NCBI GenBank assembly: GCA_030627235.1 | Contig: DAOUSL010000018.1 | Coordinates: 1-34,666, forward strand | Length of the DNA stretch: 34,666 nucleotides | Reading direction: 5' to 3' | Source: Thioploca sp. | GTDB lineage: Bacteria > Pseudomonadota > Gammaproteobacteria > Beggiatoales > Beggiatoaceae | Position numbers and translations under genes: made by a program | Notes under the pieces: generated by a model | What the model saw: the letters and a program-made list of their open reading frames with translations, nothing else | Database searches by the model: none | Told to the model about the DNA's origin: nothing | Part shown: positions 3,694-31,728 of the stretch, piece after piece | How the letters are laid out: every line of letters begins with the position of its first letter | Position numbering within the stretch: the first letter of the stretch is position 1

Positions 3694-6600
3694 ATGCGAC
3701 ATATTAAAAAAATTATTTTATTATTTATTGTTTTTATTGCAATAGGGCTTACTGCACAGGCTAAGACCCAAGAAGAAATTCAAAATGAAATTCGTTATTT
3801 AACTGATATTGTTAAGCTAACCGAATCAAACACCGATATTGTTAACTCTATTGCTCAAAAGGAGTTGATTAATGTATTGGGTTATCTGTCTAAACGAAAT
3901 GCTTTGACTGATAAATCAAAATTTAAGGAAGGTTTTCATCAATATATTGATGAAATTGATAATAATCGTAAAGTAGCTGGTATGTTATATGATATGGCTC
4001 GTTCTGGGCCTAAAAGTTTGGATTATGGTAAAGCTGATGAACGTACTTTAAAACAAAGTTGGGCTTCAAGTTCAGATATAGCTTCTATAAATGCACTTGA
4101 GCTTATTGCTAGACAATGGGTAAGTATTAAGATTCAATATGCAAGAAAAGATAAAGAAATAGATTTTAATGGTAAAGAAGCAACAAAAATTTTGAATGAA
4201 TTGGATAAACATCCTCTATCAGAATCAGGAATGAATTCATTCTACAAGAGACTTAAGAAGTTAAAAATTAAAGTAGATGAAAATAATACAGATGTGGAAC
4301 ATGCTCTTATCTCTTTATTGATGCAAATTCAAAAGGATAGAAATAAAAAGGAATATAAAAAACGCCTTGATGATTTAACCTGCATAACTGCTTTTTATCA
4401 GGGTTTTGTTGCTAAACAATTTTTGGATGGCGTTGAAAAACTAAAAAAACGAGAAGGAAAAGGAGAAATACAAAGTTGGTTAGCAAAGTATGATATATCA
4501 ATAGATAACAAAGAATACAGTAATTTGGAAAACTTTATCCAACGTTGGGAACAATTTAGAAACGAACGGAAAGAATCACCATTAACTCAAAACAATGAAA
4601 AACTTGGTCTTCACAAGGCTTGTAAGAAATTTTATGCCAAATCAGAAATTACAGAAAATAACAAATTAGAAGCATTCATCCGTGCATTGGAAATTGATTT
4701 CTATGCTGTGCGCCGGTTATTGACTGCTATTCCTATTGAACAACAGATTATTGATGATTTAGATTTATCTGATAAAAAAATTATTGATCCTATTTTGAAG
4801 CAGTTATTTATCCAATTACCTGAAGAATTAGTAAAAGCTTATCAAAATAAAAATTTCAAAGAGAGGTGTGTCAATGAATCAGTAAAAGATGATGAAAAAG
4901 CTAATTTTGAATATGAATGTGTTAAAAAAATTGTAATAGAAACTCTGTTTCAAGATAAGCAAAGTTTTAATACCAATTTAGAATTTGTAGAAACTTTTTT
5001 TAAGCAATCAGATACTAAAAAGTTGTTATGGCCAAAAGTATCTAAACCAATAAAAGAATTATGTATAGTAACTAAGATTGAAGAAATTGCTAAAAATTGC
5101 AAAAAAGCAGCTAATCCATATAGATTGCCATGCGTAGATGTAGATAAAGAAAAAAAGGAAAATAAAGAAAAGAAGGAAAATAAAGATCAGCAAGAAGTAG
5201 CTACGGCTTGTAAGAATAATGATGATTCTTTATATCAACAAATAGACTCTTTACTTAAGCTAACGTGGGATATTCATGCAGAGAGTCTTTATCAACTTAA
5301 TGAGCTTAATCAAAAAGAAGCAAAGAAACTGAAAAAAGATGAAAAAAAATTACTTTCTGAGCTTTCTGTCATTGTTGATGCAATTGAAAAACAAGTTTCT
5401 ACCATTCGTTATGAGTTGCTCAAAACGGCAAAAAAACAATTGACTGTTCATACAATTGAGCAAGCAATTAACCAAGAAATTAAAATTAAATCATGGATAG
5501 AATCTTTTTCTTTTATTCTACGTCTTAAGTCAAAACAAAATGAAGTTAATGCAGAACTTTTATTTAATATTAAAAATAAAAGTACTTTTACTTGGATACC
5601 AACTGGATTAACCACTAAAATTCCATTTAACCGTGAACAATTCGCTAATTTAGAGATTGATAAAATTCAGGATAAAATTCAAGCGGAAATAAAAGAAGGT
5701 TTTAGTAAATATCCATTTAGTTGTGCTGTAGAAAATTGTCAACAAAATTCTAAGAAACTATTACAATTTATTGGCTGGGATAATCGTTTATCACCAAAAT
5801 CTATACAATTTTCTGTTGAAAAAAGTTTATCAATTAATTTTTTGGATGAACCTATTACAATCCCTTTAAATAAAATTACAACGTTTAAAAATAAACTAAC
5901 TGAAAAAGTTAATAATATTTTAGTAAGCTACTTTACTAAAGACAGCATAAGTAAGAATTTTCCTAATGCTATTTTACCTATAGAGACTGTCAAAAGCTTT
6001 TTGGATAAATTCCCTTTTTCTTCTGAAGTAAGAATTTGTTCTAAAGACCCTAAAAAAGACTCCAAAATCTGTATTGCCAAATTACGCCTAGATTTAGCTG
6101 ATATTAACCCTAATTTAGCCGGTAATTTTGTCGTTTTTCATTTGAATTTAGATAAACAAATTGTTTTAGCAAAGAGTCATTTTGATTTAGTTGGTTTATT
6201 GAATAACTATTTTTCAGATACTCATTTTGCCAATTTAGAAAATTGTGAATTAATAACTGATACTGCACAGTGTGATTTATATCTTAATGTTAAAGGTTAT
6301 CAAAAAGTAGCTAGGGTTATTTTGGATGAAAAATATAAACTTAACTTTGAAATAGAAAAGAAAGTAAAAATTCCTTTAGGTAGTGATTTTTCTATTCAAT
6401 TGAGAACTTCTGGTTCTGACAAATTTGTCTTTATGGGAGATACTGACAATGAAAATAGTCAAATAATATGGAAGGAAAAACAACTTATATTGAAAAATAT
6501 CAAGTTAAATGTACCATTGCCATTTCAGCCAATTAGTGGAATTACTATCAACTTGGTTTCTCAAAATGGTCAACTTCAAGTTAAGCTCGATGAAGCAAGT

Positions 6601-9354
6601 AAAACCAAAATTATTAGTACCTTAGAACAGACAATAAAAATCTATTTGCCTAAACAAGTAAATGGAATTGCCGATTTAGAAATTGATTCCGAATTAAATG
6701 TTAAGCTTAAATTCAATCCAGATGTTAAATCCAATGTTAAAAAGATTATTGGGCAACTTGATTCTAATTGGTTGGAACGTGTTGAGCAACAATTATTTTC
6801 AGAAGTTGATAAATTTAAACGCTTTTTAGAAGGTAAATTTAATCCTTATTTACTTGCTACAAACTCAGATTTTTGGAATAAGATTAATCAAGAGCCAAAA
6901 CTCCAGTTTAAAGGTGCATTAAATACAAATATTAGTAAAATTGAATACCGTTGCGATAATCCAGTTCGTGAAAAAATAACTGTTGCAATTAGTGGTAAAA
7001 ATACACCTATACATGGTTATTGGTACTATAAAAATTGTGATTTTACATTTACTCCTGCTAAACCTGCTCCGAATTGTTCACTTAAATTTAATGGAAGTTT
7101 AGATAATAATTTTAAACCTAATTTTAATATATCAAAGAATGAGGAAGCTTTGCAATGTCTAAAAATTTGGCTAAAAAAACAATTACCTGAGATTAAGTTG
7201 GCAAATATTGACATAAACTTTGATTCTCAAGCAAAACGTTTCATATTTTCAATGCCTGTTGATTTACAAGGTATGAAAATACCTCTTCAAGTTGGAATTG
7301 ATTTGGAGGCTAATTGGTTTATTAACCCAACAGTGAAAGAACTCACAAAAATAGTAGCTGTTCAGTCTATAGATTTTGAGAAAAAACTAGATTTTGCAAA
7401 AACTTTTCCCGGTTTGCTTGCTTTGATGAGTACTGATTTTGATTTACGCAGTTGGGGAATTCTTAATGCTTTAACATTAATACAACGTAATAAACTAAAT
7501 GAATTAAAACCTGTTATTAAATTAAACAACTTTGGTTGGTTGGGATATAAATGTAACAATTTCCAAGAATTGCCAAATCATACTAAATTTAAATCGTGTA
7601 ACTTTGCTTTAAAAATAACCCAACCATTGGATTGTAAAATTGAATGGAGAGGTGATTTAGAAGATAATGGAAAAGTTATATTTACAACAAGTAATTCATC
7701 TTGTAAATTGGATAATTTGAAGAAAGTTTTAAATAATACACTTTTTGATTCGTCTACTATTTTGAAAGCAGAAGACCCGCAAATTCATTTTCCTAATGTT
7801 GTGCTTCCAATATCGTTAACACTTCCATCTATTATTAAAAGTGATGCTAAACCTCTGTCAAAAAGGATTAAGTTGTTAATTAATTTGAGTGATTTACTTG
7901 CAGGAAAATCTCAATTCGACATTCAACCATCTTTAAAATCACTAGTTTCTGAATTTGTTGAATTCGAGAAGATAAATACAACAACAAAATCTATTAGTGA
8001 ATTAGCAGATAATGTTGGAGGTGGCAATAATCTGGATACAATTTTAGAAAAGTGTCAAAATTTAGAAGATACATTGCTAAAATCATTAGACAATTTACTT
8101 AAAACGGTTAATATTTCTATTCTGGAGAAAGATTTTAAACCGGGTTGCCCTAAAAAGAATGACAATATTCTAAAAATAACTTCTGATTTTGGTAAACAAG
8201 CTTTAATTTTTAGTTTTAAATGGGAACTAGGTGATTTCAATGTAACAGTGAATAATGCCCGTTATTCAAACGCAGAACCGAAAAAATTGGATTTGAGCCA
8301 AGCGAGTATCAGTAGTAATGTCAATGAACAAGTTGATAAATTTCTTAATAGCCAACTTAGTTTCCTTAAATCCTTTGCAAAATTTACTGTCTTTGACAAA
8401 ATTCGTTTCAACAAAACAGCTTTACTGGTTGATTGGAATGTTGAACTAAAACTAAGCCAAGTTGGGTTGGAAAATATTACAATTCCCATTCAAACATCAC
8501 TTGATCCGATTGAACTTAAAGCCGATGTTCATGGTGACAATTTAGAAACACTTTTGGTTCAACCAATCATACAAGTCTTGTGGAAAAAACTTGCAAATCA
8601 ATTAAATGCCATTGGAAAGATTGATTTGGGATTAGTTACGGCTGAACTTACTGTGCCAAAATTGGCTAATAATGGAAAAACTGGTGAAGTTAATATATCA
8701 GTTACTATTCATGAGGAAATACCAACAATTACAACTAAGTTGCACATTCCATTAGCTTCAGGATATCAATTGAAAATTGATAAACCGGATATTGAAAGTA
8801 TTGAAATTGATGTATATAAACTAGGTTTACCTAAATTTGAAAATTTAAATATAAGCAAAATAAAACTGTATTTGTCAGAAGAAAACTACTTACCAACTGG
8901 TATTGAGTTAAATGTTGAAATTGGTTTACCTGACATAATTCCACCTCTTCCTCCCTTTGAAGTAAGTATAGACCAAACAGGAATTTCTTTTGATCTTAAT
9001 GGTATTAGTATTCCACTTGGTCGAGAAATCCTGATACCACCGATTAGTCTATGTAGTCCTACACTTACCTTTACTGATGAAAAAATTAGCTTCTATGGTA
9101 ATTTAACATTATCTCCATGCGATGTTAATAAATGGTTACTTAAATTAAATGGCGAATTCGCACTTACTTTTGAAGATTTTGCATTTTCTGGTGATGGTAG
9201 TTTAACTGCTTTCTATATCATACCATTAGGGAATAGTAAGATTAAATTGGATGTGCAAAATGGATTAGCCACTCAAACAATAGACATAGGTGGTGTATTG
9301 TCCAGTATTATTAGGTTGCAAGGAGGAGCAATATTAAGAGCCATGGGGATGTAG
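3694..9354 (+). CDS. Giant exported protein, N-terminal part (split by frameshift)
   Basis: This 1,886-residue protein starts with a clear signal peptide (residues 1-23, cleavage after AQA). Residues from about 24 to 620 are charged and mostly helical, with low-complexity Lys/Glu near residues 485-500. From about 620 onward it becomes a long series of short alternating amphipathic strands with scattered Cys pairs. Diverged repeats of a motif like CxLKFNGSLDxN or CKIEWRGDLEDNG are visible. I recognise no named domain. The strand-rich, one-anchor plan loosely recalls long envelope proteins such as AsmA or TamB, but that is only a resemblance. The frame ends at TAG 9352-9354, just after GGGG (9345-9348). 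One extra G would join it smoothly to the next frame, giving about 3,670 residues. It lies 11 bases after the toxin gene, with AGAAGA as a weak ribosome-binding site. Confidence 0.8.
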   Translation: MRHIKKIILLFIVFIAIGLTAQAKTQEEIQNEIRYLTDIVKLTESNTDIVNSIAQKELINVLGYLSKRNALTDKSKFKEGFHQYIDEIDNNRKVAGMLYDMARSGPKSLDYGKADERTLKQSWASSSDIASINALELIARQWVSIKIQYARKDKEIDFNGKEATKILNELDKHPLSESGMNSFYKRLKKLKIKVDENNTDVEHALISLLMQIQKDRNKKEYKKRLDDLTCITAFYQGFVAKQFLDGVEKLKKREGKGEIQSWLAKYDISIDNKEYSNLENFIQRWEQFRNERKESPLTQNNEKLGLHKACKKFYAKSEITENNKLEAFIRALEIDFYAVRRLLTAIPIEQQIIDDLDLSDKKIIDPILKQLFIQLPEELVKAYQNKNFKERCVNESVKDDEKANFEYECVKKIVIETLFQDKQSFNTNLEFVETFFKQSDTKKLLWPKVSKPIKELCIVTKIEEIAKNCKKAANPYRLPCVDVDKEKKENKEKKENKDQQEVATACKNNDDSLYQQIDSLLKLTWDIHAESLYQLNELNQKEAKKLKKDEKKLLSELSVIVDAIEKQVSTIRYELLKTAKKQLTVHTIEQAINQEIKIKSWIESFSFILRLKSKQNEVNAELLFNIKNKSTFTWIPTGLTTKIPFNREQFANLEIDKIQDKIQAEIKEGFSKYPFSCAVENCQQNSKKLLQFIGWDNRLSPKSIQFSVEKSLSINFLDEPITIPLNKITTFKNKLTEKVNNILVSYFTKDSISKNFPNAILPIETVKSFLDKFPFSSEVRICSKDPKKDSKICIAKLRLDLADINPNLAGNFVVFHLNLDKQIVLAKSHFDLVGLLNNYFSDTHFANLENCELITDTAQCDLYLNVKGYQKVARVILDEKYKLNFEIEKKVKIPLGSDFSIQLRTSGSDKFVFMGDTDNENSQIIWKEKQLILKNIKLNVPLPFQPISGITINLVSQNGQLQVKLDEASKTKIISTLEQTIKIYLPKQVNGIADLEIDSELNVKLKFNPDVKSNVKKIIGQLDSNWLERVEQQLFSEVDKFKRFLEGKFNPYLLATNSDFWNKINQEPKLQFKGALNTNISKIEYRCDNPVREKITVAISGKNTPIHGYWYYKNCDFTFTPAKPAPNCSLKFNGSLDNNFKPNFNISKNEEALQCLKIWLKKQLPEIKLANIDINFDSQAKRFIFSMPVDLQGMKIPLQVGIDLEANWFINPTVKELTKIVAVQSIDFEKKLDFAKTFPGLLALMSTDFDLRSWGILNALTLIQRNKLNELKPVIKLNNFGWLGYKCNNFQELPNHTKFKSCNFALKITQPLDCKIEWRGDLEDNGKVIFTTSNSSCKLDNLKKVLNNTLFDSSTILKAEDPQIHFPNVVLPISLTLPSIIKSDAKPLSKRIKLLINLSDLLAGKSQFDIQPSLKSLVSEFVEFEKINTTTKSISELADNVGGGNNLDTILEKCQNLEDTLLKSLDNLLKTVNISILEKDFKPGCPKKNDNILKITSDFGKQALIFSFKWELGDFNVTVNNARYSNAEPKKLDLSQASISSNVNEQVDKFLNSQLSFLKSFAKFTVFDKIRFNKTALLVDWNVELKLSQVGLENITIPIQTSLDPIELKADVHGDNLETLLVQPIIQVLWKKLANQLNAIGKIDLGLVTAELTVPKLANNGKTGEVNISVTIHEEIPTITTKLHIPLASGYQLKIDKPDIESIEIDVYKLGLPKFENLNISKIKLYLSEENYLPTGIELNVEIGLPDIIPPLPPFEVSIDQTGISFDLNGISIPLGREILIPPISLCSPTLTFTDEKISFYGNLTLSPCDVNKWLLKLNGEFALTFEDFAFSGDGSLTAFYIIPLGNSKIKLDVQNGLATQTIDIGGVLSSIIRLQGGAILRAMGM
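9345..9354 (+). other. Probable frameshift site in the giant gene
   Basis: GGGG at 9345-9348 is followed by ATG TAG in the upstream frame. Moving to the -1 frame, equivalent to one missing G, gives GDVEIKD and continues without a stop for more than 5 kb. There is no classical X-XXY-YYZ slippery heptamer here, so a mutation or a homopolymer sequencing error is more likely than programmed frameshifting. Confidence 0.65.
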
Positions 9355-9392: not shown

Positions 9393-12300
9393 ATGGGGGG
9401 TGAAGCTGGCATAGCTGGTTGTGCTGGTATGGAATTATTTAAAATTACGGTTGCAGATGCCCAATTTTACTTAACAACTGGAAAAATGGGTGCAATTACT
9501 GAGTATAATGTATTTGGTTTATTAAAAGGAGATGCTTCTTTTCAAACCAAGGATAAATTCCGTGACCCAAGACTTGGTATGTCTGCTGCACTTAAAGTAT
9601 TTAGTTATACACTTGCTGATGCTGATTTGGGAGTTGCACCAGATGAAGCTAGGCTTGGGTTTAGTTTCTTAGGAATTGGATTAGGTTTAACTGTTAGCGA
9701 ATTAGATCAACTAGGCCCTGATGCTGTCTGGAGAATTATGAAAGGAATTATTGCATTACCTAGTTTAGAAGATTTATGGGAAGGTCTAAAAAATCTGTTT
9801 TCAGGCAAACTAAGGCTTAATCCATTTTCATCATTTGGCAAAAAACGTGGTAGCACTTATGGAAAACATGGTGATTCTAAGAATAAAACTGGCAAAAAAT
9901 CAGATTATAAAGCTAATCCAGATGGTAAAGGTGGTTTTAAAGATGTAAAAAATACGCTCGAAAAACCCAAAGTACCACCAGCTTATAAAAAGCCAGTTAA
10001 AGAATCTAAAGCAAAGGTTCTCAGTACAGCCATGTTGGGAGCTAGTGGTAGTGGTGACACTGGTTGGGTAATTCGTTCTTCAAATAATAACTTGTTAGCG
10101 ATTAACCAAACTAAGAAAGATCAGCCAGAAACACTGATTGGATATATACCACAGAAAATGAAACAGCCTATTAGTGGTCAGCCAACTGAAGTTACACATT
10201 TTATACAAAAAGGTGAACTTTTTACTAGTAAAGGACTTACTATTTCAGTTGGAAAAGGTATGTATGCTCATTTTTTACAGCAAGATGCTGATATTGATAT
10301 AAAAACTGATTGTAGCAAACATACAACTTTACATTGGTTTATTGATTCAACTCAGAATGAAAAACCTATTAATAGGCGAGTTGCCGGTCGTTCTTTTGTT
10401 GGTGCTTGGCAATATCCTTATAAAAAAGATATGAGGATTTGTTACGATAATTTAACAAACATAGTCAAAGACCCAAACCGTAAAACTGCCTTAATGGCTT
10501 TTATTTATGGAGCAAGTGGTGTATTGGCACGAGGCTCTGATAATAAAGATGTGAATAAATTTGAAGATGTTGGTGATTTTATTACTAATGTTACTGAATT
10601 TAAAGCTGAATCTGGTGGCAAACCATTACATGTTATTGCAGTTCAATATAAAGGTCATGGTGCAACGGTTTTCTATGTTGGTGGCTGGAAAGGTAGTGAA
10701 GCAGTTACATTATTTGTTAGTGAATTGGATGCAGAAATAATTGAAAAAGATAAAGAATTTGCCAAAGTAGCTATAGAAAAGCTATTACCAATTCAGGAAG
10801 AATATCACAAATTATTTGCTGAAAAAGAAATACCTGAAAACATAACGGATTGTCCAAATGCTGGATGGCCCGGTATGTATGCACGGGTAAGAAACATTGG
10901 CGATGGTAACTTTGCTTTAGAAACATCGTTAAAAATTTTATTTTGGAATGGAAGTAGATTTTCTGAAGAAGAAGAGCCAGTTGATATTACGCAACCACCT
11001 TTAACTGTTTGTCCGGGTGAATTTTTTCCTAGCCCTATTGAAGTAATACCTCCACATATTCCAAAAAAAGAAAAAAAAGTTAGCTTCCCTCCATGGGGAG
11101 AATGTATGGCGGAAACATGTGAAGAGGGAACCACTTGGTTTATATCTAAAGAAGACGTAGATAACACACTTAGATTTACATTCCAACGCGAAAATAAAGA
11201 AAAAATATTCGATAAATCTTATAATGTTAGCTTACCTTATTCACTAAACAAAGTGGTTTTTAAAGACAACAAATTTCAGGGTAAAGAATTTATTATTTTG
11301 GATAATAAAGAAGGCTTCGCATTTGTTGTGCCTGATTCAGACTGTACAGAACACGCAGGAACATTTTGGTGGGTTTATCAAGATAAACAAGCTTCGTTTC
11401 AAATGGCAGAACAAAATGGTTTATGTGAAAACTTAAAAGGATATTTAAATACGTTTTGGAATAATAAACAAAAAACTTTTGAGTTATTACTTGATTTTAT
11501 TAAACAAACCAATAATGTTTTAGCCGAACAATGGGATAATAATCCTATTGATTATGCTAATTTTATTCAGGATGGTAAAACTCAAGGTTTAATAGTTAAG
11601 TTCAAAAAAGATAATGATATAACCTTCTTTGGTTTTAATAGCCCGGTTTCTTCTGTGAAATTATTAGGAACAGATAGCGTAAAACGTTTAACTATTAATT
11701 TTCCTCCTGAAAATGCTCTTACTTTTCTAAATTTAGTTCGACAGAAAGCTAAAGAACTTAACAAAGTTGAAGCGATTATTTTTGATACTTCAAAAACAAA
11801 AGTCCCTAATAATAGCTTACTCTATATTGATGAGAATTTGTATGCAGCCTTAATAGATAATAAATTGTTTGTACCTACCATGAAAAATGAATTATTTGAA
11901 TTAGCTACATTATCTTTTGATAAAGAAAAAATATCATTGAATAAGTTAGCTGGTAATGAAAATTTTGAAGGCAAAGAAGTAAAAAACCGATATGCAAGAG
12001 AAGCTATTCAAGTTGCACTGAAAAGTATTCAAGAAGATAAAGAATTAGCTAAATTTGAAGAAACCAAACTTTTTGAGGGAACATATTCTAAAAATGATGT
12101 TATTCATTCGTTTGCAGCTATGATACATAAGAAGGATGAACGTTATGTTGTTAATATGCAGGGTAGTGTTCCTGATTCTAAAAAGTTGGTTACAAAATCT
12201 CGTGTTAAAACACAATCTAATCAATGTAATAATAATATATTTGAAACTCAAGTATTAAAACCTTGGGTGAAAGCAGTAATTCAATGGAAATCTGATAACA

Positions 12301-14693
12301 ATGATATTAATTATGAAAAGGTTATTAAAGATGCACAACAAAATGAACAACAAAATGAACAACAAAATGAACAAACTATTGTTAATAAATATTATTCATT
12401 ATTGGAAAAAACATTAAAAAATACTGATACTTTTATAGCTCTTGATTGTTATATGTTTCAAATAGGAGGTAAGGAGAAACTATTAGCAAGATTATTTGAT
12501 CTAAGAAGTCCAACAGATGTAGAAAAATTAAAAATCAGTGGAATGGAAGGTATTTTTGATAAAAATGCTTTGGAATCTCTTAATAAGATACTTATCGCTG
12601 TTTATGATACAAAGAGTTTTGAAATTGCTCTTAGTAAAGGTGAATGTAGAAGGGCTAATTTAGCTATTCACACTGAAAAAACAGTTATAGGTAAAGAATT
12701 GGATTTAAAAGAAGTAAAAGAAATGCCGATTTTTAAAACTATCTTTGCTAAGAATGATTGTAAGGAAACTATTAAAGGTGATTATTACTTTGTAAAAGAT
12801 AAAATCTTTAAACTTGAAGGAACTAAAAAACTTTTTTCTTGGAATAATAGTGAATTTATAAGTATTAGTGAAGATGCCGAGGATAAAAATAGTCGTATTT
12901 ATTTGAAGTTGCTTGAAGACGCTCCTGAAAAGATAAAGGGATTAATGTGGATAATTGAGAAGACTGCTGTTATTTTACAAAAAGAAAATAAAACTTATCT
13001 TTACACAATCCATAAAAAAAGTACAGTAGTATCTATTGAATTATCTAGTTGGGATTCTTTGAATACAAGTGATAGGACTAAAATAATAAAATATTTACAG
13101 ACAGCTTCTATTGTACCAACCAAAGTCCTTATTCAAAAAATAAATGGAAAACTTTTAGTATGGCAAGATAATATCATATACGATTTGACTAGTGAATCCA
13201 TAAAAATTGGTCAAATACACAAAAAAGAAAATTCAGATTATAATCCAATATTTTTAAATTGGTTAAGCAAAACTATTTCAAAAAATTCTGGATGTAAAAT
13301 AGCCAGTGAAATTGAAAATGATAACTTTTTTATATTTCAATGGGAAGACAAATGTAATTTACATATTGCTGACACTAACATAATCTATTCTCCAAATAAA
13401 AACAAATCTATAAAAGTTAAAGGTAATTCAGATAAATTATCTACGCAACATCTCAATGTACTATTTGAACAATCCTTAAATAATGTTGTTTTTGAATTGT
13501 ATCAAACTAATAAGCGACTATTCGTCTTATACAAAAAAAATAAAAAAGTCCATGTTAATTACATTGATGGTGAATTTCAGAAAATTTTTGCTATTCCAGA
13601 AATAGAAACTAATGATTTCTATCAAAAGTTAGTGAATTTATTAGATGAAAATTTAGATATTGGAATAAAGTACACTAATATTACTAACAAAGCTCGATTC
13701 AATACGGCTACTAAATCTTTATTAATAATACCCTATACCTGTAATTATGGCCAATTAAATTGTGCTTATTTATTTTGGACTGATAAAGAAATGCAGCAAA
13801 CTAAAATTATTTATTCCTCTGAAACAGATTTAAATAACTTAACAATTACCTTTTTAGATAAATTGAAAAATCCAACGATAGGAAATCGGATAGATTACAT
13901 TCAAAATGATTGGTTTATATTGGAAATATCTGAGAAAAATCCTAGAAGAACTTATTGGTTTAAAGACGATAATAAGACATCTATTTACATTAAAAAGTTT
14001 CCTTCACAATATTGGAATACAAACAACCAACTTTATCTTGGTTTATTAAAGGAATTGCAAGCTGGAAATACATTGTTTGAATGCGAAAAGGTTTGGTTTT
14101 CCTATAAAAAAGAAGATATTAAAATATGGCAATCAAATCAGGAAATATTTAGTAAAATTAATTTTTCAGGTAAAGTAAAAGAAACATATATTAAAGGGTT
14201 TAAAAAAACTCTAGGTATACAAGAAAATACTGACAAAAATATTTTTATAAAGAAATGCAATATCAATAATCGTATAACTAAGCAATTCCTTAATGTGTAT
14301 ACCAGTGTAAATTCTAGTGTTCAAGTACTCGGTTTATCAACAGGTGGTTACATTATTTATAACAAAGATAATGGAGAAATAACTTCTCATCTTAAGGGAT
14401 TTGAATGTATAAATTATAATGGTGAAATAGGGTATAACAAGAAAAAAATTCACTCATTTTCAATTGATAAAGAGAGTTTGCGAAACAAAATGTGTACGGA
14501 GGAAGAACAATCCGAGTTAAATTTCTGTAAAGATTATAAATTAGAGACATTACTTCAAGAAATATCACCTTATGTTGTGCTGGGTGGTCATGGTTCAAAA
14601 ACTATAGACACCTATCAGTGGTTTAAAGATTTAGGAGAAACAGTTGAACCTAATGTAATATTTAGACCAGATACAAAATGTCAAAATAAATAA
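9393..14693 (+). CDS. Giant exported protein, C-terminal part (split by frameshift)
   Basis: This 1,766-residue frame has no signal peptide and no Shine-Dalgarno upstream of its first ATG. The same frame is open back to 9315 and reads GDVEIKDHCQKEAADN straight into it, so I regard it as the continuation of the preceding gene after a one-base deletion. Residues 1-125 continue the strand-rich fold. A Gly/Lys/Ser-rich linker follows (about 145-210), then a long Cys-containing, apparently extracytoplasmic region with no domain I recognise. Around residue 430 a VGGWKG segment recalls a VGGWKS or IGGWQS segment in both downstream LamG proteins. A threefold 12-base repeat (12336-12371) encodes a QQNE tract. 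If functional as it stands it would need reinitiation or frameshifting. Confidence 0.7.
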   Translation: MGGEAGIAGCAGMELFKITVADAQFYLTTGKMGAITEYNVFGLLKGDASFQTKDKFRDPRLGMSAALKVFSYTLADADLGVAPDEARLGFSFLGIGLGLTVSELDQLGPDAVWRIMKGIIALPSLEDLWEGLKNLFSGKLRLNPFSSFGKKRGSTYGKHGDSKNKTGKKSDYKANPDGKGGFKDVKNTLEKPKVPPAYKKPVKESKAKVLSTAMLGASGSGDTGWVIRSSNNNLLAINQTKKDQPETLIGYIPQKMKQPISGQPTEVTHFIQKGELFTSKGLTISVGKGMYAHFLQQDADIDIKTDCSKHTTLHWFIDSTQNEKPINRRVAGRSFVGAWQYPYKKDMRICYDNLTNIVKDPNRKTALMAFIYGASGVLARGSDNKDVNKFEDVGDFITNVTEFKAESGGKPLHVIAVQYKGHGATVFYVGGWKGSEAVTLFVSELDAEIIEKDKEFAKVAIEKLLPIQEEYHKLFAEKEIPENITDCPNAGWPGMYARVRNIGDGNFALETSLKILFWNGSRFSEEEEPVDITQPPLTVCPGEFFPSPIEVIPPHIPKKEKKVSFPPWGECMAETCEEGTTWFISKEDVDNTLRFTFQRENKEKIFDKSYNVSLPYSLNKVVFKDNKFQGKEFIILDNKEGFAFVVPDSDCTEHAGTFWWVYQDKQASFQMAEQNGLCENLKGYLNTFWNNKQKTFELLLDFIKQTNNVLAEQWDNNPIDYANFIQDGKTQGLIVKFKKDNDITFFGFNSPVSSVKLLGTDSVKRLTINFPPENALTFLNLVRQKAKELNKVEAIIFDTSKTKVPNNSLLYIDENLYAALIDNKLFVPTMKNELFELATLSFDKEKISLNKLAGNENFEGKEVKNRYAREAIQVALKSIQEDKELAKFEETKLFEGTYSKNDVIHSFAAMIHKKDERYVVNMQGSVPDSKKLVTKSRVKTQSNQCNNNIFETQVLKPWVKAVIQWKSDNNDINYEKVIKDAQQNEQQNEQQNEQTIVNKYYSLLEKTLKNTDTFIALDCYMFQIGGKEKLLARLFDLRSPTDVEKLKISGMEGIFDKNALESLNKILIAVYDTKSFEIALSKGECRRANLAIHTEKTVIGKELDLKEVKEMPIFKTIFAKNDCKETIKGDYYFVKDKIFKLEGTKKLFSWNNSEFISISEDAEDKNSRIYLKLLEDAPEKIKGLMWIIEKTAVILQKENKTYLYTIHKKSTVVSIELSSWDSLNTSDRTKIIKYLQTASIVPTKVLIQKINGKLLVWQDNIIYDLTSESIKIGQIHKKENSDYNPIFLNWLSKTISKNSGCKIASEIENDNFFIFQWEDKCNLHIADTNIIYSPNKNKSIKVKGNSDKLSTQHLNVLFEQSLNNVVFELYQTNKRLFVLYKKNKKVHVNYIDGEFQKIFAIPEIETNDFYQKLVNLLDENLDIGIKYTNITNKARFNTATKSLLIIPYTCNYGQLNCAYLFWTDKEMQQTKIIYSSETDLNNLTITFLDKLKNPTIGNRIDYIQNDWFILEISEKNPRRTYWFKDDNKTSIYIKKFPSQYWNTNNQLYLGLLKELQAGNTLFECEKVWFSYKKEDIKIWQSNQEIFSKINFSGKVKETYIKGFKKTLGIQENTDKNIFIKKCNINNRITKQFLNVYTSVNSSVQVLGLSTGGYIIYNKDNGEITSHLKGFECINYNGEIGYNKKKIHSFSIDKESLRNKMCTEEEQSELNFCKDYKLETLLQEISPYVVLGGHGSKTIDTYQWFKDLGETVEPNVIFRPDTKCQNK
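12336..12371 (+). repeat. Three perfect 12-base repeats within the giant gene
   Basis: CAACAAAATGAA occurs three times in tandem and encodes a QQNE tract. The unit length is a multiple of three, so copy-number change would keep the frame. It is probably a length-variable linker. Confidence 0.9.
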
Positions 14694-26955: not shown

Positions 26956-29133
26956 TTAAGCTAAATTACCAAAATATTGGAAAATTACAAAAGTGAAACA
27001 TATTAATACAAAAACTGGATAGCTTATTCTTCCCATTAATGTTAGTTTCTTTACAAATTTTTCATCATTTTCATAGGCATGCATCATTAAGCCTATTCCA
27101 ATACATAATACTGCCAATAAATAGCTCATATAAAAGAAATATTCTACCAATGTAAAGTACGCTATATTAGGTAATTCTGAAGCTAATCTGACATGTAAAA
27201 TAGACGTTGGCAATATTATATTGACTCCTAAACCTAATTGGATAGATAATGTAGTCGTAAAAAATATTCCATATCCTAAAGATATTAAAATAAAAGTTGG
27301 GAATAAATTCTTAAAAATGAAATTCAGAGCCTTTCGTTTTATTTCTATTGCAACGTTAAATAAAGAATATTCCATTCGTTGTTGAGAATAAAAATAATCA
27401 GGTAGTCCAAAAGTAGAATCGTTTTCTTGTACACCAGTAAAAAATTCTACATCAGAAACTTGCCAACTATTAACGGAAAAAATATCCTTGTATTTGGTTA
27501 GAATATTTTCAGTTCTCATACCATGAGAATCAACTATATAAATTAAAGTATCTCTAGTTTTTTGTTGATGTCGAAATTTAATTGGTAAAATTTGTCTATC
27601 CAATGGGTAATTATGAAAATCAAAGTAACCTTTAAATTTAGTTTTAATTCGATAGGTTCTAGTAGTAAAAATTCCTTCAGTAGTAGTAGATTCCTCATTA
27701 ATTATTGGTTTTCCTAGGCTAACTGGATTAACTGCATTTATAAAATTAATGTCTTTATCTATAAAATCTTTAGTATTGAAGCGAAACCAAAGATAAAAAT
27801 CTGCAATAAAAGTCGATTTTTGAGTATCAAGTCCAGTTATTTCATTCATATCCATTCCAACATAAACTATTTTGGCTTTCGTCATTATATTTTCATTAAC
27901 TTTGATCAATTCTCCAGCCAAGACTTTTGGTAAAATATCTCCTTTTATATTACGTGGATTAGTTAATAATCTATATTGGTCTAAGGCTATTTCTGTTTTG
28001 CCTTTTTTATATATGCTAATTGGTATAGATTTGACTGCATCACCTTGTTTATCAAAATAAATTGAACCAGTAACTCCTTTCACTGAATTTTCAGAATGAG
28101 ATATCTGCCATAAATTATCTTTTAACTGTTGTCTTTGTTTTTCGATATTAGTAGATGATATTTTTTGTAAAGCATGTAAGGCAACTTTTGCAGCATCGTA
28201 ATATAGAGCCGCAGTTACAGAAGGTTTAGTTTTATATTTATCTAGGAAATTATTTTTAAAATTAATAGCGACTTCATCACCTATATCCATAACAAATGGA
28301 GTTGTCAAATATATACCATCAGTGAAATAACCAGGTTGAATTTGTTCTTGAGGATATTGTTGTAGCTGTTTATTAAACTGACTGCTGGATAAAACATCTG
28401 CTCCAATTATTTGTATATAATGCCATTCTTGACGTAAAGCTATAATTGCTTTCAAGGCTTCTTTGGAATGAGTTGCTAAAAATAGACCTCCAGCTTCTTT
28501 GCCTTCTCCATTAAAAATTTGCACTACTCGATTAAGCACTTGATCAAAATTATCTTGATTAAAACTCCATTTGTGCTTGATATTTAAATTATCTATTTGT
28601 TTTGCAGTTTGTTCAAAAGCAGTAGCCAAGGTAGAACCATAAATTCCTTCATCATATAAAATACTTGCATTCTTATATTTTAAAACTTTAAACGCATAAT
28701 TAGCTAACAATGCTCCTTGACTTGAATTATTAAAGATAATCCGGAAAGCTCCATCATTATTTTTAGTAAGTTCATCAACAGTAGCACTTCCAGTAATAAT
28801 AGGAATATTATATTTTTGATAAATTGGTGCAGCAATTAAAGAGGATTTACTATCATAATGGCCAATAACTGCAAGAGCTTTGCTATTTACAACTTGTATA
28901 GCTGTTTTTGTTACATCTGTTGCATCATCAAACACTAATAGTTCAATGGTTTTACCATCAATGCCACCTCGTTGATTTATCTCTTCAACATATAATTGCG
29001 CTCCTTGTACCATTGCTTTACCATTAGCTGTTTGCATTGGACCAACCACAGCAATATATGCTACTTTGTCAAATAGCTTCCAGCCTACCAACATGATAAG
29101 CATAACTGAGATAAAGATTCCATATTTTTTCAT
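26956..29133 (-). CDS. Periplasmic binding protein fused to a pentameric ligand-gated ion channel
   Basis: The 725 residues have three parts. An N-terminal membrane anchor or signal (about 5-22) leads to a type I periplasmic binding protein domain of the branched-chain amino-acid/amide family (about 26-400; VVGPMQTANGKAMVQGAQLYVEEIN, then ALAVIGHYDSKSSLIAAPIYQ). Next comes a Cys-loop-receptor-type extracellular domain (about 419-600) with a cysteine-less Pro-loop GYFDFHNYPLDRQILPIKF (YPLDRQ at 509-514). Then four membrane helices: M1 about 605-627, M2 628-650, M3 657-685, M4 705-722. SELPNIAYFTLVEYFFYMSY across the M2-M3 junction matches prokaryotic channels such as GLIC. I infer an inner-membrane channel gated, or tuned, by a solute captured in the binding domain. 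Ligand and ion are unknown. Confidence 0.88.
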   Translation of the reverse strand: MKKYGIFISVMLIMLVGWKLFDKVAYIAVVGPMQTANGKAMVQGAQLYVEEINQRGGIDGKTIELLVFDDATDVTKTAIQVVNSKALAVIGHYDSKSSLIAAPIYQKYNIPIITGSATVDELTKNNDGAFRIIFNNSSQGALLANYAFKVLKYKNASILYDEGIYGSTLATAFEQTAKQIDNLNIKHKWSFNQDNFDQVLNRVVQIFNGEGKEAGGLFLATHSKEALKAIIALRQEWHYIQIIGADVLSSSQFNKQLQQYPQEQIQPGYFTDGIYLTTPFVMDIGDEVAINFKNNFLDKYKTKPSVTAALYYDAAKVALHALQKISSTNIEKQRQQLKDNLWQISHSENSVKGVTGSIYFDKQGDAVKSIPISIYKKGKTEIALDQYRLLTNPRNIKGDILPKVLAGELIKVNENIMTKAKIVYVGMDMNEITGLDTQKSTFIADFYLWFRFNTKDFIDKDINFINAVNPVSLGKPIINEESTTTEGIFTTRTYRIKTKFKGYFDFHNYPLDRQILPIKFRHQQKTRDTLIYIVDSHGMRTENILTKYKDIFSVNSWQVSDVEFFTGVQENDSTFGLPDYFYSQQRMEYSLFNVAIEIKRKALNFIFKNLFPTFILISLGYGIFFTTTLSIQLGLGVNIILPTSILHVRLASELPNIAYFTLVEYFFYMSYLLAVLCIGIGLMMHAYENDEKFVKKLTLMGRISYPVFVLICFTFVIFQYFGNLA

Positions 29134-29599: not shown

Positions 29600-31381
29600 T
29601 TAATGTTGATAATGTAAACTTAAGAACCAAAATTGGTCTGGAGTATTGAATCCATATGCTGTTTCATATTCTTTGCCTAGCATATTTTCTAATCTTGCTC
29701 TTAAAGTCCAACTTTTATTAAAATGGTATTCACCAGCTAAATTAACAATTCCATAACCAGCCAAACGTCTAGTATTAGCAGCATCATCATATCTATGACT
29801 CTGAGCTAATGTATTCACACTTAAACGCATTGGCCCTCGTCTTTCAGCTAATTCTACATTTATCGTTTTCTTAGCTCGACGTGGTAACAGATTACCAGTT
29901 GTATCATCTTCTGGATTTAACCAAGATACTTTAGTATTAAACTCCCAATTATTTTGTCGCCAACCTATTGAACCATCCATACCTGTAATATTAGCTTTAT
30001 TAATGTTATCAGCATAATAGCTATTACTTACTGGATCAAAATTAGTAGCAATAAGTTTATCAATCTTAGTTTTATAAATATTGATTGACCAATTATAATC
30101 CTGCTGATTTCCGATCAGACCAATTTCATAGCTTTCCGACTCTTCTGGGATTAGATTAGAATTACCAAAGTTAGGAAAATATAATTCATTGAAAGATGGT
30201 GCTTTAAAAGCGATTCCATAACTTACGATAAAACGAGTTTTAGTATTTAAAGCATAACCTAAGCTAATATTTTGAGTAGTATGATTATCAAATTGCTCAT
30301 TATCATCTTGACGAACTCCCACTAACAAATCAATTGAACCAAAATCAGTTTGGTATTCAGCGAACATACCCTTGTTAGTCAAGGAATCTATTGCATAATT
30401 AGTATGGCTGTCTATTTCATCGATTTGTTCTTCATAACCAATTATTAGCTCATGATTATCAAAGAAAAAATTATTTTGTAAACTGTATATAGTACGGGTA
30501 GTGTGAAAATAAGATTGGGAGTTTTCATCAAATTTATCTTTGCTTTCACCTATATTAAGATTTAGCAACCACCAATCATTAGCAGAATAATTTGTTTTAA
30601 TCCCAAGAACTTGCTGGGTAAAATCTGCCTCATTATTAAATGAAGAATCAAATTGAGTATTACCTTTGGCTCGCAAGGCATTTATTTCAATACTGCCTAT
30701 ATCACCAAACTTATGCCCTAATTTAGTGCTAAATGAAGTATTTTCATAACCATCATCATCTGGTTCTACAGTAAAACAACCAGCAGGATTTTTGCAAGCA
30801 TTGAAACCATCAGATTTAATATGATTAGTATATATGCTTAACCAATTATTTTGATCTGAACTGGAAAAACCAGTGGTTATTCTATAGGTATTATCAGCTC
30901 CAATCCCAATACTAGCTTCAGCCTGTGGTTTTTTACTATGTCTAGTGAAAATTTGGATCACACCACCAATAGCTTCAGAACCATATAAACTAGAACGTGG
31001 GCCACGTACAATCTCAATTCGTTCAATTTGGGATATTGGTATATTTTGAAATGCTATGCTACCAGTTGTTGCAGACCCAATTTTTATACCATCAACAAGA
31101 ACTACAAGATGGTCAGATTCAGTACCACGCATAAATATAGAAGTATTTTGTCCTAATCCTCCATTACTGACAATATCTAAACCTGGAACTCCACGTAACA
31201 CATCGTAAATACTAACAGCTTGACTTTTAGTGATTTCTTCTCGAGTGATTACGGTGACTGAAGCTAACGGACTGGTTTTGGCATAACGAGTTGCTGTCAC
31301 AACTACTTCTGGTAAAACAGTTGCCGCAAAGTTTAAGATTGGATATAAAAATAATAAAATAGCTATAAATACATAATTCAA
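29600..31381 (-). CDS. btuB: TonB-dependent cobalamin receptor BtuB
   Basis: This 593-residue outer-membrane receptor imports vitamin B12-type corrinoids using TonB energy. A signal peptide (about residues 1-19) is followed by the TonB-box region LPEVVVTATR. The plug domain (about 35-145) contains SIYDVLRGVPGLDI, TSIFMRGTESDHLVVLVDGIK and IERIEIVRGPRSSLYGSEAIGGVIQI. A 22-strand-type barrel follows, ending with an aromatic C-terminus (FWFLSLHYQH). Length and plug motifs match BtuB. The start is a TTG (31381-31379) with AGAGGAA nine bases upstream; no in-frame ATG fits. The riboswitch upstream supports the corrinoid assignment independently. No btuCDF genes are in the window. Confidence 0.92.
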   Translation of the reverse strand: MNYVFIAILLFLYPILNFAATVLPEVVVTATRYAKTSPLASVTVITREEITKSQAVSIYDVLRGVPGLDIVSNGGLGQNTSIFMRGTESDHLVVLVDGIKIGSATTGSIAFQNIPISQIERIEIVRGPRSSLYGSEAIGGVIQIFTRHSKKPQAEASIGIGADNTYRITTGFSSSDQNNWLSIYTNHIKSDGFNACKNPAGCFTVEPDDDGYENTSFSTKLGHKFGDIGSIEINALRAKGNTQFDSSFNNEADFTQQVLGIKTNYSANDWWLLNLNIGESKDKFDENSQSYFHTTRTIYSLQNNFFFDNHELIIGYEEQIDEIDSHTNYAIDSLTNKGMFAEYQTDFGSIDLLVGVRQDDNEQFDNHTTQNISLGYALNTKTRFIVSYGIAFKAPSFNELYFPNFGNSNLIPEESESYEIGLIGNQQDYNWSINIYKTKIDKLIATNFDPVSNSYYADNINKANITGMDGSIGWRQNNWEFNTKVSWLNPEDDTTGNLLPRRAKKTINVELAERRGPMRLSVNTLAQSHRYDDAANTRRLAGYGIVNLAGEYHFNKSWTLRARLENMLGKEYETAYGFNTPDQFWFLSLHYQH

Positions 31382-31440: not shown

Positions 31441-31530
31441 CAATTGCCCTCCGCAATAAACTTAAATACAATCATTAAACTTATATCCAGCGTTAACCAG
31501 ATTGAGTTTAATAATCGTAGTAAAACATTT

Positions 31531-31698
31531 AGGCCGGTCTCCGGACTTATAAGTATATTACAGTTAAACGCCTTCCCACATAAAATATGCAGTGACTTAA
31601 AATGTTTAACCTTAAACTTATTTACCGTTGCGGGGGCAGTATCAGATTTGCACTGATTTCCCGTTTAATTTATATACAAACACCATAAACGTTATTTG
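31531..31698 (-). ncRNA. Cobalamin riboswitch
   Basis: The minus strand carries the conserved cobalamin aptamer elements in order: GGTGTT near 31684, ACGGGAAATCAGTGCAAATC, the B12-box-like ACTGCCCCCGCAACGGT, a CACTG...GTGGGAAGGCG arm, and the 3' AAGTCCGGAGACCGGCC. It lies in the btuB leader, about 150 bases before the start codon, and should lower btuB expression when cobalamin is plentiful. Confidence 0.95.
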
Positions 31699-31699
31699 A

Positions 31700-31728
31700 A
31701 TATTATAATTAATTTGATTCTATGTCAA
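31700..31728 (-). promoter_or_regulatory. Sigma-70 promoter of the btuB leader
   Basis: On the minus strand a perfect TTGACA (31728-31723) is followed by TAATAT at 17 bases (31705-31700) or TATAAT at 15 bases (31707-31702). Transcription would begin a few bases before the riboswitch 5' end, which fits its placement exactly. Confidence 0.7.

Follow-up and report, generated by a model that had tools for sequence, protein, structure and literature searches.

A periplasmic binding protein and a predicted Cys-loop-type extracellular domain are joined to two unrelated pores in bacterial genes

A bacterial gene encoding a periplasmic binding protein (PBP-I) fused to a pentameric ligand-gated channel (pLGIC) subunit was found to belong to a family in which the same PBP-I and Cys-loop-type extracellular domain (ECD) also occur on an MscS pore, where the Pro-loop proline shared by pLGICs has been lost in nearly all sequences. 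The gene lies at 26956-29133 on the minus strand of the window, a stretch of 34,666 nucleotides of Thioploca sp. (assembly GCA_030627235.1, contig DAOUSL010000018.1, positions 1 to 34,666). The fusion to a pLGIC was already known, since Tasneem et al. reported in 2004 PBP-I domains fused to bacterial ART-LGICs in Magnetospirillum magnetotacticum and Bradyrhizobium japonicum (PMC549065). On the other hand, no earlier report of an MscS/Cys-loop fusion was found in literature searches restricted to open-licence papers without preprints.

The gene is a single open frame of 725 aa from ATG. Peripla_BP_6 matched residues 30-339 with E 9.9e-32, and the C-terminal part matched GLIC chains over residues 494-722 at E about 1e-8 with a single sequence and 1e-15 with a 20-sequence profile. 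The Pfam model Neur_chan_LBD was below its cut-off for this protein (E 0.057) and Neur_chan_memb was not hit, indicating that the Pfam test proposed in an earlier note is weak here; both models hit the paralogue L009 (8.8e-5 and 4.9e-4), although also below their cut-offs. The AlphaFold model (pLDDT 83.9, pTM 0.80) showed an N-terminal helix (residues 2-17), a PBP (about 24-390), a beta-sandwich (about 409-600) and four helices (602-623, 629-653, 662-686 and 691-721). The model matched LivJ 4gnr over residues 23-389 at VIA Z 42.1 (rmsd 2.4, 339 residues) and whole-length pLGICs such as GLIC and GABA-A at Foldseek E about 1e-17. None of the solved chains listed matched both the PBP and the channel; PDB 9ftg, a 609-residue pLGIC chain for which no paper was found, matched only in the pore region.

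The N-terminal hydrophobic helix (29074-29130, minus strand, residues 2-20) is probably an uncleaved signal anchor, as suggested by hydropathy and the model; no A-x-A-like site was seen in the sequence, although the lack of cleavage is an inference. It is followed by the LivJ-like PBP-I domain (27964-29064, minus strand, residues 24-390), in which S95, T118 and D246 are equivalent to S79, T102 and E226 of LIVBP, taken here as the probable amino-acid contacts. The Cys-loop/Pro-loop-type extracellular beta-sandwich (27331-27897, minus strand, residues 413-601) contains the core Trp557, the Pro-loop tip Y509-P510-L511-D512 (27598-27609, minus strand) and the pre-M1 arginine R600 (27334-27336, minus strand), the partner of D512 in known pLGICs. 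The four-helix channel domain M1-M4 (26971-27330, minus strand, residues 602-721) carries the M1 Pro612 and the M2-M3 Pro655. All signature residues listed by Jaiteh et al. 2016 (PMC4795631) are present. The M2 pore helix (27175-27249, minus strand, residues 629-653), numbered with the M2-M3 proline as 23', has S at -2', Q at 0', N at 6' and a hydrophobic L at 9', so that selectivity could not be read from it.

The possibility that a frameshift or mis-assembly joins two genes was rejected: although the genome is a 471-contig draft, an orthologue in another genome of the genus (locus L151) is 79.7% identical over residues 1-724, 19 further pLGIC-type fusions aligned with the protein, dN/dS was 0.14 overall and below 1 in all parts including the linker (0.14 for the PBP, 0.19 for the ECD and 0.07 for the membrane part), and the same fusions occur in complete genomes.

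The host genome holds 12 copies. Three are PBP-I + pLGIC, and two carry an extra SBP_bac_1 domain after M4, on the periplasmic side, one of these (L005, contig C282) being interrupted by two TAA stops, either as a pseudogene or through sequence error; intact relatives exist. In the remaining seven the PBP-I and ECD are followed by an MscS pore, two of these with a cyclic-nucleotide-binding domain (cNBD). Pore, beta-domain and cNBD of the MscS-type siblings match Pfam MS_channel_2nd, MS_channel_3rd and cNMP_binding (MS_channel beta-domain PF00924, E 1e-13 to 1e-19), and the MscS core motif is intact in 90 of 102 frames counted. ECDs of the pLGIC and MscS types are 28-37% identical over about 190 residues. 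Pfam and NCBIfam, however, report no ECD in the MscS-type proteins, which are thus filed as ABC-transporter binding proteins.

To test whether the ECD on the MscS pore has the Cys-loop fold, the ECD of L050 (Candidatus Halobeggiatoa HSG11) was modelled from 57 MscS-type ECDs with no pLGIC-type sequence in the alignment (pLDDT 86, pTM 0.82). The Foldseek matches listed were AChBP, nicotinic, GABA-A, GLIC and ELIC chains at E about 1e-9, and VIA Z to ELIC/GABA-A reached 15.1 with 165 of 198 residues at 3.3 Å. These results indicate that the predicted fold is that of Cys-loop receptors. A profile search of the ECD alone against PDB sequences failed to hit pLGICs; only structure comparison and the pLGIC-type intermediates connect them, so sequence profiles alone would have missed the relationship.

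About 95 MscS-type genes were found, from Beggiatoa relatives to Desulfonema, Leptospirales and Azospirillum. In the family of the host, 32 of 43 genomes and 19 of 25 genera have the ECD, and in a sample of the phylum 40 of 398 match the MscS-type ECD profile at E 1e-10 or better. One public genome scan gave 79 loci from Beggiatoa relatives, Desulfobacterota including the complete genome of Desulfonema magnum, Leptospirales, Magnetococcales, Phycisphaerae, Opitutae, Anaerolineae, SAR324, cyanobacteria and Rhodospirillales. Azospirillum plasmids carry PBP+ECD+MscS+cNBD (L156, annotated as an ABC transporter substrate-binding protein) and PBP+ECD+MscS (L157). These counts come from a top-80 list and are not prevalence. 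Azospirillum brasilense and Desulfonema magnum are cultured organisms. A 530 aa ECD + MscS protein without any PBP, the simplest form of the chimera, is encoded at L137 2027-3616 in a genome of the same family. In Candidatus Parabeggiatoa HSG14, L094 5777-9148 encodes PBP-I and an ECD without the Pro-loop followed by a membrane stretch and a P-loop ATPase (GESGLGKT, weak AAA_22 match), a single example of a possible third output of the same sensor.

A tree of 119 PBP+ECD sequences separated the two pore types by one branch (SH-aLRT 99), requiring only one change of pore and leading us to reject many independent swaps. After thinning at 80% identity to 29 pLGIC-pore and 68 MscS-pore sequences, P510 was P in 29/29 and 3/68, D512 was D in 27/29 and 4/68, and R600 was R in 29/29 and 1/68, respectively. 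W557 and about 20 other core positions, in contrast, were 85% or more identical in both groups. In 561 pLGICs the proline is the only absolutely conserved residue, and the D-R pair is a salt bridge (PMC4795631). In the MscS group the proline site holds A, I, V, S, L, F, T and others, as expected for lost constraint rather than one fixed substitution. Because there was one exchange, the 68 MscS-type sequences are not independent events, and it is the variety of replacements that supports relaxation. Whether the Pro-loop proline serves the fold, assembly or coupling to the pore has been asked by mutation; here the pore was changed in nature and the ECD core kept while the three residues were lost, which separates coupling residues from folding residues without mutagenesis and suggests that the ECD can gate other pores.

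Fifteen loci have an MscS-type gene without cNBD followed by one with cNBD on the same strand, always in that order, suggesting a mixed complex. Eleven pLGIC-type loci have an SBP_bac_5 lipoprotein gene immediately upstream on the same strand, and three more were found in the genus; in Desulfonema magnum that gene is itself PBP-I + SBP_bac_5. No MscS-type gene was in that neighbour cluster, and the window gene has no such partner. In L011 5126-8641 and relatives (L037, L095, L104, L106, L111 and L114) the pLGIC subunit is flanked by two binding proteins, PBP-I before and SBP_bac_1 after the channel. Tandem pairs of pLGIC-type genes (L117 3662-8121 and L122 3993-8366; overlap of frames or 33 nt gap) suggest heteromeric bacterial pLGICs. 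A cNMP-binding-domain transporter-like gene sits about 50 nt downstream of the MscS-type gene in L077 (8839 onwards), and a related gene lies downstream in five other, similar Desulfamplus-type loci.

In the absence of electrophysiological and ligand data, we consider it likely that closure of the PBP-I on an amino-acid-like ligand strains the ECD and, through the Pro-loop/pre-M1 contact, opens the four-helix pore. In agreement with this, S95 is conserved in 32/32, T118 in 28/32 and D/E246 in 28/32 pLGIC-type sequences. The type II binding protein encoded directly upstream or fused at the C-terminus in many siblings probably supplies or senses a second ligand. On the MscS pore, often with a cytoplasmic cNBD, the same portable sensor would give a predicted channel responding to an outside metabolite and an inside nucleotide, a different contact replacing the Pro-loop/R600 route. 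About half of the MscS-type PBPs lack the acidic residue at the amino-group site, so their ligands probably differ and may not be amino acids. The direction of the exchange, from pLGIC to MscS, is inferred from the wide occurrence of the ECD + four-helix pair in bacteria, archaea and eukaryotes. Some features are not easily accommodated: the N-terminal helix leaves only about six residues before the PBP in the model, so that if it is not cleaved the PBP must sit beside rather than above the ECD, complicating simple top-down coupling; the window copy has Q instead of R/K at M2 0'; and a five-fold ECD on a seven-fold MscS pore is unexplained. It is somewhat more probable than not that the ECD of Cys-loop receptors is pore-independent in nature, having been moved once with its PBP-I cap onto an MscS pore, where it shed the coupling residues, acquired a new interface and now gates a second channel class by extracellular ligand, often together with intracellular cyclic nucleotide; such a natural chimera could have a five-fold to seven-fold symmetry mismatch or a seven-fold Cys-loop ECD. 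This would also give a possible answer to what bacterial Cys-loop relatives are for, which was still open in 2016 (no biological role known for any).

It remains possible, although less likely, that the PBP-I only concentrates or delivers ligand to the orthosteric site in the ECD without itself driving gating, since Tasneem et al. (PMC549065) argued for preliminary concentration of ligand and the stand-alone type II SBPs encoded next to the gene in siblings fit delivery. However, the PBP is covalently attached in nearly every family member found on both pore types, with a well conserved cleft, although the PBP-less L137 shows that it is not strictly required. A doubtful alternative is that on the MscS pore the ECD is only a spacer or oligomerisation stalk with no role in gating, the channel answering to tension and cyclic nucleotide. 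The loss of the Pro-loop P and D and the pre-M1 R shows that the pLGIC coupling route is gone, and the intact MscS motif and frequent cNBD agree with this view; on the other hand, ECD length, fold and about 20 core residues are kept across phyla, and an MscS-specific residue pattern (H at 514, G at 517, L at 581) suggests a new interface rather than decay. Gating of the window protein mainly by protons or calcium, with a modulatory PBP, is unlikely: the closest solved channels by sequence are proton-gated GLIC entries, and DeCLIC is opened by calcium depletion while its N-terminal lobes only tune kinetics, but the PBP domain is under strong purifying selection with conserved ligand-contact equivalents, and the closest sequence by profile says little about the stimulus.

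Compared with the fusions of Tasneem et al., the order of PBP-I, Cys-loop-type ECD and four-helix pore is the same, and PBP-II genes next to some pLGICs and a role in chemoreception were also put forward there; no MscS pore under the module and no C-terminal SBP_bac_1 fusion were seen in that report, and the window gene belongs to a much expanded family. GLIC and ELIC share the ECD and pore folds, Pro-loop, pre-M1 Arg and the M1 and M2-M3 prolines, but lack PBP-I and the N-terminal anchor helix, whereas the window protein has Q at M2 0' and no charge at -2'. No MscS or bCNG channel with a Cys-loop ECD or a PBP in front was found in the searches. The earlier note read the domains correctly, and its proposal that metabolite capture controls ion flow remains the likeliest function; however, it could not confirm an identical fusion, which had been in print since 2004, and the DeCLIC domains it proposed for comparison are beta jelly-roll lobes with calcium sites, not a Venus flytrap. 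Its comparison with ionotropic glutamate receptors, which also have a PBP-I-like N-terminal domain ahead of a ligand-binding domain and a pore, is an analogy only, since that pore is unrelated and tetrameric and the second domain is PBP-II-like.

In the window, a full cobalamin riboswitch (31516-31702, minus strand) precedes a TonB-dependent, BtuB-like receptor gene (29600-31381, minus strand), with the pLGIC gene downstream on the same strand and Sel1 downstream. A functional link of the pLGIC gene to these neighbours was rejected, because the orthologue L151 has neither BtuB nor the riboswitch. Elsewhere in the same genome, L018 1453-4110 (contig C193) encodes a lipoprotein with a PBP-I domain, thrombospondin-type aspartate-rich repeats and what looks like an OmpA-like C-terminus. 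Two giant ORFs of 1886 and 1766 aa (3694-9354 and 9393-14693, plus strand) follow a MotA/TolQ/ExbB-family gene (351-1895) and two small ORFs in the window, the first giant having no Pfam match at E 0.01.
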